IMG/VR virus record: IMGVR_UViG_3300042518_000024
Span: 1 to 20,050 of that record
Length of the DNA stretch: 20,050 bases
Reading direction: 5' to 3' (one strand)
From: a virus
Shown here: positions 15,139-20,050 of the stretch, piece by piece
How positions within the stretch are numbered: the first letter of the stretch is position 1
Layout of the letters: each line of letters starts with the position of its first letter
The notes under the pieces: generated by a model
Told to the model about the DNA's origin: nothing
What the model saw: only the letters and a program-made list of their open reading frames with translations
Database searches by the model: none
Program-made: the position numbers and the translations under genes

Positions 15139-16398
15139 ATGGCTGTAACAATTAGCGGTAGCGGTACGATTGATGTTGGCGGGACAAGCACATCGCAGGG
15201 TACGGTACGGCTGTATGAGGATACGGATAATGGTACGAATTATGTAGAGCTAGTCGCTCCAGCTAGTGTGGCAAGTAATGTCACACTGACCATGCCTACA
15301 ACTACGGGTACTGTAGCGACAGTAGCTGGCAGTGATACACAAGTCATTTTCAATGATGGTGGCTCGGCATATGGCGGTGACTCAGGGCTGACGTACAACA
15401 AGACAACGGATACCCTAACCACGAGCGTTGTCGTTCACGGCGCTGGCACTGCTTCCGCACCATCTATCACCACCACAGGCGACACCAATACGGGTGTGTT
15501 CTTCCCTGCTGCGGATACGGTAGGTGTAACGACGGGTGGCTCCGAGCGGATGCGTATTGATTCCTCCGGCAGAGTGGGGATTGGGGTTACGCCAAGTTCA
15601 AGTTCTGGATTTTCCCAAAGACTTCAAATAAAACAAGCGGATGGAATATATTCAGGATTGCAAATACAAAAATCTGATGATGATTCTATTTTAGGAGTCG
15701 GGTACTGGACAACTCCAGCCGCATTTTCTTTTGCTGCTACTTACACTTCAACAGGGTCTTACCTACCTATTTCTTTTGTTACTAGCAGCACCGAGTGGAT
15801 GCGTATTGGCAGCGGGGGTGAGGTTTATTTCCCCGGCGTTGGAACAACAGCCTCGGCTGCGAATGCTTATCTTAATAACGGGGCAACGCCAGCAAATCAA
15901 TTACTAAGATCAACATCGTCGCTGCGTTACAAGACAGATGTTGAAACGCTTGACCACGCTAAAGCCGATGCCGTTCTTAACTTACGTCCTGTATGGTATC
16001 GCTCCAAAGCTGAGGCTGACCGTAAAGATTGGTCATGGTACGGTTTAATTGCCGAAGAAGTTGCTCAGGTTGAGCCGAGACTTGTTCATTGGTCATACCC
16101 CGAAGATCAATTTGAAACAATTGAGACTCAGACAGAGATAGAAAAGACCCGTGAAGTTGAAGTAACACCAGCGGTTTTAGATGACGAAGGCAATGTTGTT
16201 GAGCCTGCCGTTACGGAAACAGAGACCTACACGGAAACCGAAACAAAGTCTGAGCGTAAGTTAAAAGCAGATGCTCAACTTGCCCCAGATGGTGTTCAGT
16301 ATGATCGTTTAACGGTGATGCTGCTTGACATTGTGAAACGTCAAAATCAACGCATTGAACAGCTAGAAGCAAAGGTTGCGGCATTGGAGGCTCAATGA
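15139..16398 (+). CDS. Tail fibre/spike with C-terminal S74 intramolecular chaperone
   Basis: This 419-residue protein has a beta-rich shaft (1-255), including YEDTDNGTNYVELVAPASVA, APSITTTGDTNTGVFFPAAD and SERMRIDSSGRVGIG. It ends in a peptidase S74 / intramolecular chaperone domain (about 257-419): SSLRYKTDVETLD, WYGLIAEEVAQVEP, VQYDRLTVMLLDIVKRQNQR and a terminal coiled coil. In S74 domains a Ser and a Lys five residues later form the self-cleaving dyad; here Ser260 and Lys265 fit, so cleavage just before Ser260 is expected. An acidic Thr/Glu-rich insert (about 325-375) lies inside the chaperone. Bases 15600-15720 are noticeably A/T-richer than the flanks, suggesting a swapped segment. Confidence 0.88.
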   Translation: MAVTISGSGTIDVGGTSTSQGTVRLYEDTDNGTNYVELVAPASVASNVTLTMPTTTGTVATVAGSDTQVIFNDGGSAYGGDSGLTYNKTTDTLTTSVVVHGAGTASAPSITTTGDTNTGVFFPAADTVGVTTGGSERMRIDSSGRVGIGVTPSSSSGFSQRLQIKQADGIYSGLQIQKSDDDSILGVGYWTTPAAFSFAATYTSTGSYLPISFVTSSTEWMRIGSGGEVYFPGVGTTASAANAYLNNGATPANQLLRSTSSLRYKTDVETLDHAKADAVLNLRPVWYRSKAEADRKDWSWYGLIAEEVAQVEPRLVHWSYPEDQFETIETQTEIEKTREVEVTPAVLDDEGNVVEPAVTETETYTETETKSERKLKADAQLAPDGVQYDRLTVMLLDIVKRQNQRIEQLEAKVAALEAQ

Positions 16399-16472
16399 AC
16401 CTACACCTAGCCCAAATTGAAACAAGCAAGAACCCACCAATCACTAAACCAAAATTGCCTTGGGTAGCGTAA
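16395..16472 (+). CDS. Possible 25-residue ORF or decayed gene start
   Basis: An ATG overlaps the S74 fibre stop (ATGA) and opens a 25-codon frame, MNLHLAQIETSKNPPITKPK then LPWVA. Bases 16428-16453 (AAGAACCCACCAATCACTAA and onward) resemble the ribosome-binding and start region of the small partner gene at 17392-17420 (aaaggaacccaaaatgcc, then tatcaccaaac). It may therefore be the eroded 5' end of a third partner gene rather than a real gene. Confidence 0.3.
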   Translation: MNLHLAQIETSKNPPITKPKLPWVA

Positions 16473-16473
16473 T

Positions 16474-16569
16474 ATGAATCAGGACATTTGTAAGCCAGAG
16501 AAGGCGATTGCACAAGCAGCATGGACACCAGAGGTCATTGCGGCGTATCAGGCTCAGCAAACCGTATAA
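16474..16569 (+). pseudogene. Truncated third copy of the fibre partner gene
   Basis: This 31-codon frame encodes MNQDICKPEKAIAQAAWTPE then VIAAYQAQQTV. Its last two-thirds matches the C-terminus of the gene at 17405-17647: over 57 bases (16504-16560 against 17579-17635) I count 5 differences, all at third positions and all synonymous. The N-terminal half of the family (TKQTVIDxIxVTE...RIMEDGQ) is missing. It is either a remnant left by recombination or a short gene still translated. No good Shine-Dalgarno is seen upstream of 16474. Confidence 0.6.
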
Positions 16570-16592
16570 ATTATTGAGTCAGGAGAGTTAAA

Positions 16593-17372
16593 TTGTCTCA
16601 AGTTAAAATTCAAGGTGGTGCTTCGGGATCAGATAACTACACGATCCTAGCACCAGCTACGTCCACAGGCGATAAAACGCTTACCCTGCCCACGGCAACG
16701 GCAACACTAGCTTCTACGGATGCTAATACGTTCACGGGAGTGCAGACCTTCCCAGCGGGATCGGTATCAGCCCCATCTATCACTACAACAGGCGACACCA
16801 ATACGGGTGTGTATTTTTCAGCGGCCGATGAGATCAGTTTCGCTACGGGTGGTTCACAAAGAGCAAAGATTGGTACGGCTGACCTAACCATAACCAACGG
16901 CAACCTAGTCATCGGCACCAGCGGCAAAGGCATTGATTTCAGTGCTACCGCAGGGACAGGTACAAGTGAGTTGTTGGCTGATTATGAGGAAGGGACTTTT
17001 ACGCCGGTTGTGAAAGGGACAAGTACGGTTGGTACTGTTACTTATGTGCTACAAATTGGCCGATACACAAAAATTGGCAATCGTGTGTTTTTTCAAATCT
17101 CGGTTGCTTGGAATAGCGGCACAGGAACGGGTAATTTAAGAGTGGATGGATTACCTTTTACAAATGCTTCTGGAACTGGATTCAATCCTCCCCCAACTAT
17201 CGTCACACAAAATATTGTCTTAACTGCTAACCACTATGCCACTGGCGATATTGCTCAGGGCCAATCACGAGTAGACATTTATTCCTGCCCAACGGGAGGT
17301 GGTGGGATTGCAGATGTTGCATACGATGCCGCTGGTGAAATTTATTGTGCAGGGCATTATTTTGTAACTTAA
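16593..17372 (+). CDS. Short tail fibre / tip protein
   Basis: This 259-residue protein appears to start at TTG (16593), because AGGAG (16581-16585) lies 7 bases upstream and MSQVKIQGGASGSDNYTI is a normal fibre-type beginning. The N-terminal part has TSTGDKTLTLPTATATLAST and APSITTTGDTNTGVYFSAAD; the second block is nearly identical to one in the S74 fibre. From about residue 131 a distinct C-terminal domain follows: DYEEGTFTPVVKG, GRYTKIGNRVFFQISVAW, and near the end GEIYCAGHYFVT. The YEEGT[FW][ST]P domain is common at phage fibre tips. It probably binds a receptor or is an alternative tip. It is followed by a small partner gene. Confidence 0.78.
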   Translation: MSQVKIQGGASGSDNYTILAPATSTGDKTLTLPTATATLASTDANTFTGVQTFPAGSVSAPSITTTGDTNTGVYFSAADEISFATGGSQRAKIGTADLTITNGNLVIGTSGKGIDFSATAGTGTSELLADYEEGTFTPVVKGTSTVGTVTYVLQIGRYTKIGNRVFFQISVAWNSGTGTGNLRVDGLPFTNASGTGFNPPPTIVTQNIVLTANHYATGDIAQGQSRVDIYSCPTGGGGIADVAYDAAGEIYCAGHYFVT

Positions 17373-17404
17373 GTCATTTGAAATATCAACGAAAGGAACC
17401 CAAA

Positions 17405-17647
17405 ATGCCTATCACCAAACAAACGGTCATTGACCAAATAACAGTCACCGAGAACGGCATCGTGCTTTATCGTGAAGCCACTCGCATCATGGAAGACGGT
17501 CAGCAACTGACACAAACCTATCACCGCTCATCTCTTCAGCCCGGACAAGACCTAACCGGACAGCCTGAGAAAGTAGTTGCGATTGCTCAAGCAGCGTGGA
17601 CACCAGAGGTGATTGCGGCGTATCAGGCGCAGCAGGCGCAGGCCTAA
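17405..17647 (+). CDS. Small fibre partner protein, copy A (80 aa)
   Basis: ATG at 17405 follows AAAGGA (17392-17397); the frame extends further upstream but without a Shine-Dalgarno. The protein reads MPITKQTVIDQITVTENGIV, REATRIMEDGQQLTQTYHR, and ends WTPEVIAAYQAQQAQA. It is paralogous to the gene at 18184 and the remnant at 16474. Small proteins with this 'VT..G....R.AT.IMEDG......HR' plus 'TPEVI.AY.A' layout lie behind fibre genes in other phages. A chaperone or fibre-cap role is plausible but unproven. Confidence 0.78.
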   Translation: MPITKQTVIDQITVTENGIVLYREATRIMEDGQQLTQTYHRSSLQPGQDLTGQPEKVVAIAQAAWTPEVIAAYQAQQAQA

Positions 17648-17659
17648 TAGGAGGTTACT

Positions 17660-18166
17660 GTGTCAACAGTAAAAACAACGAATGTACAACACGGGTCAGC
17701 AACAAACACAAACCTCGTGCTGGCTAGTACGGGTACAGCGCAGTTTTATAACACCATATCGGTAGGCAACACCACGCCTTCTTCTTCTGGTGCAGGCATC
17801 ACCTTCCCTGCCACGCAATCAGCCTCTACTGATGCGAATACCTTGGATGATTATGAGGAAGGGACGTGGTCACCGACCTGTAGCAATGGATCAACCTTTG
17901 CTGGAAACTATATAAAGATCGGTAAGGTTGTGCATTTGTTCTATGAGACATCATCGTGCGGGACACTTGTTGCCGGTAGTACAACCTTAACAGGGATTCC
18001 ATTTACTTCATCTGGGCTTCTAGGTGCCTCTGGGTCTGGAACATTTATAAATGCTACATCTACAACAGCATTTGGTGGCACTCAGCTAACATCAACCACC
18101 CTTTATTTTGCGACTGCATCTTCGTCAGCGGCACTGCGTGGATATCATTGTTATTACGTTGCGTAA
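17660..18166 (+). CDS. Short tail fibre / tip protein
   Basis: This 168-residue protein starts at GTG 17660 with AGGAGG (17649-17654) 5 bases upstream. It begins MSTVKTTNVQHGSATNTNLV, then DANTLDDYEEGTWSPTCSNG, NYIKIGKVVHLFYE and TTLTGIPFTSSGLLGAS, ending GYHCYYVA. The DDYEEGTWSP start of the C-terminal domain matches that of the 16593 protein, including 17 identical bases (GATTATGAGGAAGGGAC), but the distal sequence is different. That is what is expected for tips with a shared attachment and variable receptor-binding ends. It is followed by the second partner gene. Confidence 0.78.
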   Translation: MSTVKTTNVQHGSATNTNLVLASTGTAQFYNTISVGNTTPSSSGAGITFPATQSASTDANTLDDYEEGTWSPTCSNGSTFAGNYIKIGKVVHLFYETSSCGTLVAGSTTLTGIPFTSSGLLGASGSGTFINATSTTAFGGTQLTSTTLYFATASSSAALRGYHCYYVA

Positions 18167-18183
18167 TCAAAAAGGAACCCAAA

Positions 18184-18420
18184 ATGTCTCTCACCAAACA
18201 AACCGTCATTGACATGATTGAAGTCACCGAAGGTGGTCATGTTCAGATCCGCAAGGCTACAAGAATCATGGAAGACGGTCAGGTACTTAGCCAGTCATTC
18301 CATCGTCACGTTATTGCACCGGGGCAGGATTATTCCGCTGAAGATCCCAAGGTACAGGCTGTCTGTGCCGCTGTGCATACCCCAGAAGTGATTGCGGCTT
18401 ATCAAGCTTCCCAAGCATGA
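18184..18420 (+). CDS. Small fibre partner protein, copy B (78 aa)
   Basis: This gene is paralogous to copy A. The 16 bases AAAGGAACCCAAAATG (18171-18186), covering the ribosome-binding site and start, are identical in both, and the next coding bases are nearly so (ACCAAACAAAC[CG]GTCATTGAC). The protein reads MSLTKQTVIDMIEVTEGGHV, RKATRIMEDGQVLSQSFHR and ends HTPEVIAAYQASQA. The centre has diverged (VIAPGQDYSAEDPKVQAV against SLQPGQDLTGQPEKVVAI). It overlaps the next start as ATGA. Probable role: fibre assembly partner or tip component, unproven. Confidence 0.78.
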   Translation: MSLTKQTVIDMIEVTEGGHVQIRKATRIMEDGQVLSQSFHRHVIAPGQDYSAEDPKVQAVCAAVHTPEVIAAYQASQA

Positions 18421-18557
18421 AAACACTAGACTTTAACCTGACCGTGGAAGAGGCTAATCTGATCATGCAGGCACTGGGCAATTTACCTTATGCACAGGTA
18501 TCAGCCTTAGTGGACAAGCTGCGTGAACAAGCCAAGCCTCAGTTGGAAGAGGCGTAA
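18417..18557 (+). CDS. Small conserved phage protein (46 aa)
   Basis: ATG at 18417 overlaps the previous stop (ATGA), and the stop overlaps the next start (TAATG). The protein is MKTLDFNLTVEEANLIMQAL, GNLPYAQVSALVDKLREQAK, PQLEEA. The pattern 'F.LTVEEANLI...LG.LPYAQV..L..K...Q' recurs in very small phage proteins between fibre and lysis genes. It is predicted to be helical. No function is assigned. Confidence 0.78.
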   Translation: MKTLDFNLTVEEANLIMQALGNLPYAQVSALVDKLREQAKPQLEEA

Positions 18558-18973
18558 TGGAAGATAAAGCCCACGAGCTAGCGGTCCTCAAGGCGCAAGC
18601 CAGAATCAAGCTAGAGGAACTCAAGGCTCAGGACTCAGCCAAAGAGGTTGCTGGTAAGGCTATCGGTGAAGATGGGCTGCTTTACATCTTCCTGATCGTA
18701 CTCGTGGGTGTTGGTGCGTCCCTCTTTTTGGAAGGCGAAAAAATTGCTGCTGTTATGGGTCTTCTTGGCGCTTCACTTACTGCACTTATCCAGATGTTAA
18801 ATGGCATTGCCGGAACCGCGCCCAAACAAGAGAAGCCCGAGTTTGAAGTCATCAAGGACTTGATCACACGCCTTGACAAACTAGACCGAGCCGAGCCGCC
18901 CATGCAAGTGGATGTTGAAGGCTCCAAGGTGACGGTTAAGAAAGGTGCTGACATCGTAACGGCTAAGGGGTAA
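18557..18973 (+). CDS. Small membrane protein, two TM segments, lysis-module associated
   Basis: This 138-residue protein has a charged N-terminal helix (1-35, KAHELAVLKAQARIKLEELK), two hydrophobic segments at about 41-58 (LLYIFLIVLVGVGASLFL) and 63-86 (IAAVMGLLGASLTALIQMLN and on), and a soluble C-terminus (IKDLITRLDKLDRAEPPMQV). It lies directly before the 3TM-type holin and the endolysin. A two-TM hairpin in that place fits a holin or antiholin, but no family is recognised. The start overlaps the previous stop (TAATG), with GGAAGAGG upstream. Confidence 0.75.
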   Translation: MEDKAHELAVLKAQARIKLEELKAQDSAKEVAGKAIGEDGLLYIFLIVLVGVGASLFLEGEKIAAVMGLLGASLTALIQMLNGIAGTAPKQEKPEFEVIKDLITRLDKLDRAEPPMQVDVEGSKVTVKKGADIVTAKG

Positions 18974-18975
18974 TT

Positions 18976-19461
18976 ATGTTTGAGCTACTCGGCGGCGGTC
19001 TTTTAGGCTCCATCTTCGGCGGCATCTTTCGCCTTGCCCCTGAAGTCCTTAAGTTCTTGGACAAAAAGAACGAACGCCAGCATGAGTTATCCATGTTCCA
19101 GCTTCAGACCGATCTGGAAAAGATGCGCGGTGAATTCAAGATGGAGGAGAAGTATGTTGACTACTCTATCCAGCAGATGGATACGATCAAAGAGGCATTT
19201 AAGGAGCAAGCTCAGACTGCAAAGGAAGCAGGTTGGTTGGCTTCTTTTATCACTGCTATCACCCGTCCTGGCCTCACTTGGATTGCTTTTGGGGTTTATG
19301 TTGCTGTTAAAGCTGCTGGCCTGACGATTGCTTTTCAGACCAACGCGAACTGGGCCGAGGTCTTAACTAAGTCCTATGACGAGGATGATTTCGCCATGCT
19401 GAACATGATGCTCACTTTTTGGTTTGTTGGGCGCAGTATTGAGAAATACAACAAATCGTGA
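18976..19461 (+). CDS. Holin, 3TM (GTA-type) family
   Basis: This 161-residue protein begins MFELLGGGLLGSIFGGIFRL, then APEVLKFLDKKNERQHELSM, the signature of the 'holin of 3TMs, for gene-transfer release' family. A charged helical stretch (about 28-85) follows, then ITRPGLTWIAFGVYVAVKAA (about 95-114) and a last hydrophobic segment at 139-153 (AMLNMMLTFWFVGRS). It is expected to insert in the inner membrane and release the endolysin. It is adjacent to a GH24 endolysin, whose GTG overlaps this stop (GTGA). Confidence 0.82.
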   Translation: MFELLGGGLLGSIFGGIFRLAPEVLKFLDKKNERQHELSMFQLQTDLEKMRGEFKMEEKYVDYSIQQMDTIKEAFKEQAQTAKEAGWLASFITAITRPGLTWIAFGVYVAVKAAGLTIAFQTNANWAEVLTKSYDEDDFAMLNMMLTFWFVGRSIEKYNKS

Positions 19462-19925
19462 AAGAGGCAAAGAAGCTTTGCAAGGATGTACTGATCAAGC
19501 CCTTTGAAGGCCTAGCAAAGCGTTTGCCTGACGGACGTGTAACAGCTTATCCCGACCCCGCAACAAAAGGGCATCCTTGGACAATCGGCTGGGGGGCTAC
19601 CGGCCCTGATATTAATCCCGGCACGATCTGGACGATTGAGCAGTGCGAAGATGCGCTGGATCATCATGTGGAGTATTTTGTCCGAGGTCTGGTAAAGCTT
19701 TCACCCAAGATTCAAACCGCACTACCGCGACGCATTGCCGCTGTGACTAGCTGGGTCTACAATTGTGGCTTAGGAAACTATCGGGTTTCCACGTTCAAGA
19801 AACGTATTGATGCGGGAGACTGGGATGGTGCAGCAGACCAATGTATGCTCTGGAACAAAGCTGCCGGTAGAGTTCTTCCTGGTCTCACACGCCGACGTGC
19901 GGCTGAAGCTGCATTGATGAGGTGA
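19458..19925 (+). CDS. Endolysin, glycoside hydrolase family 24 lysozyme
   Basis: This 155-residue protein has IKPFEGLAKRLPDGRVTAYP followed by DPATKGHPWTIGWGATG. Glu17, Asp33 and Thr42 correspond to the Glu-Asp/Cys-Thr triad of GH24 (T4 lysozyme Glu11, Asp20, Thr26). Spacing between Glu and Asp is about seven residues wider than usual because of RLPDGRV. The C-terminal lobe has SWVYNCGLGNYRVSTFKKRI and NKAAGRVLPGLTRRRAAEAA, standard for the family. There is no signal peptide or SAR helix, so release depends on the holin. It cleaves peptidoglycan glycan strands. GTG at 19458 overlaps the holin stop and has only a weak upstream GAG. No spanin genes are recognised next to it. Confidence 0.9.
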   Translation: MKEAKKLCKDVLIKPFEGLAKRLPDGRVTAYPDPATKGHPWTIGWGATGPDINPGTIWTIEQCEDALDHHVEYFVRGLVKLSPKIQTALPRRIAAVTSWVYNCGLGNYRVSTFKKRIDAGDWDGAADQCMLWNKAAGRVLPGLTRRRAAEAALMR

Positions 19926-19928
19926 ACC

Positions 19929-20050
19929 GTGAACACAAAAATTTGCATTAAATGCAGAATCACAAAATCTCACGCAGAGTTTTACAAAAACAAACGCATG
20001 AAGGATGGATTAAATACGTTTTGTATTTTATGTCACAAGGCTGACAACTT
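19929..20050 (+). CDS. Zinc-ribbon protein, N-terminal part (runs off the window); possible HNH/endonuclease VII-like
   Basis: A GTG at 19929 with GAGGTG upstream opens a frame to the window end: MNTKICIKCRITKSHAEFYK, NKRMKDGLNTFCILCHKADN. The CIKC...CILC pairs and the 'K.FYKNKR.KDGL...C..C' layout are typical of the N-terminus of phage HNH and recombination-endonuclease-VII-like proteins. The nuclease part, if present, lies beyond the window. Its A-rich composition resembles the GIY-YIG gene rather than its neighbours. Confidence 0.65.
   Translation, partial: MNTKICIKCRITKSHAEFYKNKRMKDGLNTFCILCHKADN

Follow-up and report, generated by a model that had tools for sequence, protein, structure and literature searches.

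Exchange of tips among phage fibres and small chaperones encoded downstream of fibre genes are both known, and the chaperones have usually been described as cognate, moving together with the tips. In the Alteromonas phages V22 and A5 (gp26/gp27 and gp8/gp9, respectively; PMC7289586, PMC10579305), a fibre with a distal head is followed directly by a small gene, and this module is common to unrelated phages. In this study, we analyzed a virus DNA fragment of 20,050 bases (the whole of IMG/VR record IMGVR_UViG_3300042518_000024, hereafter designated as the window), in which positions 15139-18420 carry fibre genes followed by genes for small proteins, the latter termed partners here. A sequence-only reading of this region had recognized three fibre genes, each preceding a member of one small-protein family, and had regarded them as a module for exchanging or stacking receptor-binding tips, each with a matched assembly partner. 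All of the open reading frames (ORFs) were found as described, but the third small-protein copy lacks its first two thirds, so that the window holds two intact units of a short fibre and a partner of approximately 80 amino acids (aa) at 16593-17647 and 17660-18420, respectively, both on the plus strand. The third slot comprises a fibre with a Peptidase_S74 (S74) domain and a remnant of a partner. Altogether, the slots hold two kinds of tips, namely one S74 domain and two copies of the domain that we term the knob. With a probability of roughly 60%, we regard this region as a receptor-binding head exchange locus, in which knobs are swapped and the constant partner acts as a generic assembly chaperone of the knob class. 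The constant partner and the variable head are here separated by sharp borders, and this arrangement recurs across a large, natural collection of phages from freshwater and the sea.

Exchange of the knob beside a constant partner

Short fibre 1 (16593..17372; TTG start), which matches tail-fibre families of PHROG, and short fibre 2 (17660..18166; GTG start) carry the knob as their C-terminal part (knob 1, 16974..17369; knob 2, 17843..18163). The domain begins at DYEEGT, followed by Y.KIG and GLPF. The knob profile matched fibre 1 with an E-value of 3.6e-36 and fibre 2 with an E-value of 5.6e-15, and the two knobs were 36% identical over 77 aa in BLAST. The distal ends of the fibres had been noted earlier to differ from one another; this holds for the S74 fibre, the C-terminal domain of which is distinct (PF13884), but not for the two short fibres, both ends of which fit the single knob profile. 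The AlphaFold2 model of knob 1, with a mean predicted local distance difference test (pLDDT) score of 95.5, was most similar to the C-terminal domain of the Dettilon tailspike gp208 (6f7k_B; Z of 15.1 and root mean square deviation of 2.4 over 127 residues), followed by Noumeavirus NMV_189 (7qrr_F; 13.2 and 2.7 over 128 residues, respectively). Zamilon Zav_19, Listeria PSA gp15, the TP901-1 receptor-binding protein (RBP), reovirus sigma proteins, and adenovirus knobs were found with lower scores. The knob is predicted from this model to be a beta-sandwich head of the viral attachment-head type at the fibre C-terminus, and the knob fibres are presumably trimeric and receptor-binding. The search of the knob sequence against solved structures yielded nothing usable, and nothing was found on the DYEEGT motif in the literature.

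The homology among relatives breaks at both edges of the knob. On the 3' side, there were 97 contig-pair matches running through the 3' end of the partner gene and beyond, and the homology begins at the junction between the knob end and the partner start in 75 of them, in the knob in eight, and in the partner in four, while the remaining ten continue through the knob. On the 5' side, 172 of 208 contig-pair matches end in the DYEEGT region. As the contig pairs are not independent of each other, these counts describe the borders and are not to be taken as probabilities. At its 5' end, the exchanged knob is bordered by the conserved neck of fibre 1 (16899..17005, GNLVIGTSGKGIDFSATAGTGTSELLADYEEGT), which shows 70-92% DNA identity to many relatives, most of the matches stopping near 17005; the neck of fibre 2 (...GAGITFPATQSASTDANTLDDYEEGT) was also found in relatives. 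Between contigs L044 and L075, the DNA on both sides of the knob is 96-98% identical and no alignment was obtained across the knob. These two contigs and two others (L033 and L034) share necks and partners that are 100% identical, while their knobs are 23-37% identical. Altogether, the exchange of receptor-binding tips supposed in the sequence-only reading is strongly supported by the breaks at both knob edges, by the identical necks and partners flanking unrelated knobs, and by the S74 slot, in which a knob and the greater part of a partner have been replaced (see below for the details). Point-directed diversification of the knobs was rejected, as the alternative knobs differ by 60-77% with insertions and deletions and not at selected sites.

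The identity of the partner did not follow that of the individual knob. Across the 148 pairs in the pooled set, the two identities were uncorrelated (r = 0.005), and the correlation in the subset retrieved with the fibre query was not significant (0.096, p = 0.13). In a comparison including the neck, the correlation with the partner was 0.38 for the neck and -0.04 for the knob. Knob identities of approximately 30% are near saturation and thereby weaken these correlations, but the cases of identical partners do not depend on such identities. When the partners were clustered at 95%, more than one knob type was found in 15 of the 16 multi-member clusters, one of which had nine. Furthermore, seven contigs (L011, L013, L040, L192, L199, L206, and L235) possess two knob fibres but a single partner. 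No clear split was seen between the partner subtypes with respect to the knob motif W..TGTG (16/91 versus 15/57). The proposal that each tip has a matched partner is thus not borne out; rather than being matched to the individual knob, the partner follows the knob class.

Co-occurrence of the partner and the knob class

The partner family was present in 69 of the 80 loci retrieved with a query comprising the fibre only. Loci were fetched as the best query matches, which biases the counts, and the contigs are partial. Among the full-length partners of these loci, 48 of 65 start within 100 nucleotides (nt) from the knob ORF and the other 17 within 3 kb. Any genes lying in between mostly encode homing endonucleases, further fibres or spikes, or small proteins of a second kind. 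Two further sets were selected neither by the fibre nor by both parts. The least biased test of the link is provided by the contigs picked by the downstream holin-like gene; among those with more than 2.5 kb of upstream DNA, nine possess both knob and partner, none the knob only, one the partner only, and 44 neither (Fisher, 2e-9), although the set includes some near-duplicates and the lone partner sits at a contig edge. The partner therefore accompanied the knob in 9/9 contigs with the knob and was seen in 1/45 without it. The other set came from a search of bacterial genomes with the partner profile, which detected five loci, namely those in Polynucleobacter, Marinomonas, and metagenome-assembled genomes (MAGs) of Planctomycetaceae, Bauldia, and Clostridia; a knob-tipped fibre lies immediately before the partner in 5/5. 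In records of Pelagibacter and Synechococcus phages, the partner follows genes for fibres or spikes. On the other hand, both knob and partner were absent in 23/23 loci retrieved with the S74 module, two of which are on contigs ending soon after the S74 gene. Thus, the association of the small protein with fibres stands but is narrowed to the knob class (0/23 in the S74 loci), and the partner was nearly always found behind a fibre gene in relatives, not independently of fibre genes.

Additional genes were observed around these units. HNH-like ORFs are inserted between fibre and partner in three relatives (L062, L066, and L103), and the window itself contains a GIY-YIG-like ORF at 517-1530 and the start of an HNH-like ORF at 19929-20050, both resembling homing endonucleases. 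A second small-protein family, ending in ...FIAQAYEHLKTLPEFAGATDC, lies between fibre or spike genes and the partner in ten contigs, and 16 contigs carry a second, diverged partner-like gene directly after the first. In the Clostridia MAG (L274:3449-6855), two units of knob fibre and partner are arranged in tandem, a distant parallel to the window.

The S74 slot, internal repeats, and flanking genes

The first fibre gene (15139..16398, plus strand; 419 aa) is a mosaic. Its S74 domain lies near the C-terminus (residues 260-316) and scored 33 bits against the Pfam cut-off of 22 (PF13884; E-value of 7.6e-8). At its start, this domain shows the sequence TSSLRYKTDV, which resembles the usual self-cleavage site. 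The N-terminal part of the gene (15139 to about 15419) is common to contig L090, a near relative, and block homology further delimits a shaft block at 15454-15542. L090 shares three blocks with the window at 90-92% DNA identity, and there the same fibre N-terminal part is followed by a knob, a complete partner, and the start of fibre 1; the window has the S74 domain and the partner remnant in the corresponding place. The region 15802..16466 was found at 94-96% DNA identity in eight contigs (L247-L254; two of them, L252 and L253, match only to 16422), while the remaining DNA of these contigs showed no match to this part of the window. We therefore regard this region as a module that was acquired by horizontal transfer. 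The module extends 68 nt beyond the stop codon, and its 3' end abuts the remnant, a 31-aa ORF (16474..16569, ...PEKAIAQAAWTPEVIAAYQAQQTV) corresponding to the partner C-terminus. Compared with L090, one of the three slots was converted by an S74 module from another phage, which took the place of the knob as well as the initial two thirds of the partner and left the remnant behind.

Partner A (17405..17647; 80 aa) and partner B (18184..18420; 78 aa) are 62% identical over 78 aa in the protein comparison (E-value of 6e-33). When searched against the record of the window itself, partner A matched only partner B (E-value of 4.8e-27) and the remnant (7e-9); at the DNA level, the only match of the remnant was to the terminal part of partner A, at 93% over 56 nt. 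The two genes begin alike, with 85% identity in a stretch of 60 nt that includes AAAGGAACCCAAAATG, so that the common ribosome-binding site noted earlier was recovered; this exact leader is rare among relatives (3/148), and AAAGGAA is frequent (53/148). The blocks reported to be shared pairwise by the fibres were found as well, as a common block of 89 nt at 76% DNA identity between the S74 fibre and fibre 1 (APSITTTGDTNTGV) and a stretch of 23 nt at 96% around DYEEGT between fibres 1 and 2. In addition, DNA self-comparison revealed a block of 29 nt, which encodes TPEVIAAYQA at the 3' end of the partner gene and occurs three times on the plus strand (16525..16553, 17600..17628, and 18379..18407), the first copy being 97% identical to the second. 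The internal similarities are far above chance and extend well past the blocks quoted in the sequence-only reading. As to the number of cassettes in relatives, contig L354, with 97.8% DNA identity to the window over 18385-20050, carries only one knob, with a partner resembling A, and thus one cassette fewer than the window. Its homology to the window starts in the last partner codons, at 18385, inside the third copy of the 29-nt repeat. Unequal recombination between such repeats would add or remove whole units.

The 3' side of partner B is a constant flank conserved in relatives (18417..19461, plus strand), comprising a 46-aa ORF, a 138-aa ORF, and a 161-aa holin-like protein, after which a lysozyme follows. 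The holin-like protein (18976-19461) matched phrog_6637 and, more weakly, a holin family. It shows 97-100% protein identity in 80 contigs with quite different upstream fibres, while the DNA identity in several of these contigs is no more than about 79-84%. Thus, this protein seems to be under very strong purifying selection.

Proposed function of the partner and comparison with known systems

Both partners are members of phrog_6228, a family with no assigned function, and match its profile almost in full length (residues 2-78 of A with an E-value of 4.5e-18 and residues 1-77 of B with 3.6e-20). The AlphaFold2 model of partner A (mean pLDDT of 95.9) comprises three long strands (3-14, 20-30, and 33-44) and two helices (55-64 and 67-79). 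R23, R41, and Y73 are invariant in the family, and D10, G18, T26, G32, H40, P46, and D49 are nearly so. A search of the fold in BFVD retrieved the own family alone. No natural fusion of fibre and partner was found; the few long frames containing a partner are out-of-frame read-through from upstream or carry a second diverged copy.

We propose that the unit would consist of a short fibre of the trimeric type ending in the knob and the small partner gene behind it, the knob being a receptor-reading head that is replaced as one unit. Recombination would replace the knob-coding DNA of about 320-400 nt between the neck, the end of which is DYEEGT, and the conserved partner start, while the conserved 3' end of the partner gene would serve as a less frequent junction. 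The partner would stay during the swaps and serve the knob class as a whole, possibly as a small factor of general use in folding or assembly, which recognizes the constant framework of the knob and not its variable receptor surface. Since the partner stays while the knob is replaced, it is unlikely to be specific to one tip. Its confinement to knob fibres, together with its loss where the self-chaperoning S74 tip was inserted, suggests the role of a generic chaperone. The domains, the exchange borders, the constancy of the partner, the co-occurrence at the class level, and the replacement by S74 as compared with L090 are all shown by sequence comparison, whereas trimeric assembly, receptor binding, and the chaperone function are inferred. 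The window phage is of a lake type, and one partner probably helps many different heads fold or assemble.

Several results weigh against this proposal. Partners A and B belong to no Pfam family, and the search of 66 family members against Pfam gave scattered single matches with no recurrent family. The comparison of the partner fold with the PDB (Foldseek and VIA-align) detected only weak, short matches, none with an E-value below 0.001 and the best with a Z of 3.7, and the partner sequence found nothing usable among solved structures. Neither V22 gp27 nor A5 gp9 matched the profiles built here above the inclusion threshold. Partner and knob identities were weakly correlated in the partner-query subset alone (0.212, p = 0.005). 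Knob fibres without a recognizable partner occur in L111 and L114, and an S74-type fibre lies directly before the partner in four contigs (L095, L200, L229, and L230); a knob fibre is found further upstream in three of the four, and the contig of L200 starts too close to tell. As a separate observation, the partnerless knob fibre of L111 is directly followed by a different gene of 93 aa (L111:5789-6067).

The partner could instead be a structural component of the virion, such as a cap, collar, or decoration on the knob fibres, which is kept in the particle. We consider this unlikely, albeit the constancy of the partner across knobs, its position always adjoining the fibre gene, and its compact and stable predicted fold are all in line with it. 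The loss of the partner on the arrival of a self-chaperoning S74 tip is explained less readily by a structural role, although a cap specific to knobs would become useless as well.

The cognate chaperone moving with its own tip, as supposed in the sequence-only reading, seems improbable. Among the pairs with knobs more than 70% identical, the partners were more than 80% alike in 16 of 19, and all but 1 of the 14 multi-member knob clusters had a single partner cluster at 80%, so knob and partner can move together. Similar knobs mostly keep similar partners, and therefore some transfers carry both. Nevertheless, a cognate chaperone is difficult to reconcile with identical partners behind unrelated knobs, the pooled correlation near zero, the exchange borders at the partner start, and the seven contigs with two knob fibres and one partner. 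Equally improbable is a mere neighbour functionally unlinked to the knob, the conserved DNA of which provides the 3' homology for the swaps while both spread together: the junctions at the edges of the partner gene and the correlation of partner similarity with the downstream and upstream flanks (0.286 and 0.224) and not with the knob (-0.07 and -0.03) would suit it, but the association is seen in five lineages of bacteria as well as in marine and freshwater phages whose neighbouring genes differ, and the partner is absent from relatives that share the downstream genes but have no knob.

Should the partner be an assembly factor for the whole knob class, free sampling of heads by environmental phages would be explained, an unannotated family present in hundreds of contigs would gain a function, and head exchange would become directly countable in metagenomes. 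The carriers of knob and partner include phages infecting Pelagibacter, Synechococcus, and Prochlorococcus. At slightly less than even odds, we tentatively suggest that phrog_6228 represents a new, minimal class of intermolecular fibre chaperones (about 80 aa), which is universal for one knob class and lets phages accept unrelated heads as single-domain cassettes, its own gene supplying the homologous border on the 3' side of the exchange.

Compared with known systems, the predicted knob fold is like those of trimeric viral attachment heads, i.e., the C-terminal domain of Dettilon gp208, NMV_189, Listeria PSA gp15, TP901-1 RBP, reovirus sigma1, and the adenovirus knob, but the sequence identity is 20% or lower. 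The fibres of T5, K1F, and GA1 have the S74 intramolecular chaperone domain seen in the first fibre of the window; in such fibres the chaperone resides within the fibre and no partner is needed, and the S74-query loci examined here are without the partner. With respect to tail fibre assembly chaperones (Tfa, gp38, V22 gp27, and Pam3 gp25), the partner agrees in gene order, being directly after the fibre and tied to a fibre class, and not in sequence homology. Pam3 gp24/gp25 and Tfa of phages Mu and lambda (PMC9608196) share the gene order, the N-terminal beta part followed by C-terminal helices, and a fibre head of the TNF-like type. Pam3 gp25, however, has at least 162 residues and a variable beta domain that binds the fibre, whereas the partner has a well conserved beta part (R23, H40, and R41) and no Pfam match. 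Altogether, the partner resembles Pam3 gp25, Tfa, and the V22/A5 chaperones in arrangement and not by family membership. The V22/A5 chaperones (PMC10579305) are also composed of three beta strands and helices like the partner, but they are 195-239 aa in length as compared with about 80 aa, and they are cognate to a shared fibre, whereas a single partner goes with many knobs here.

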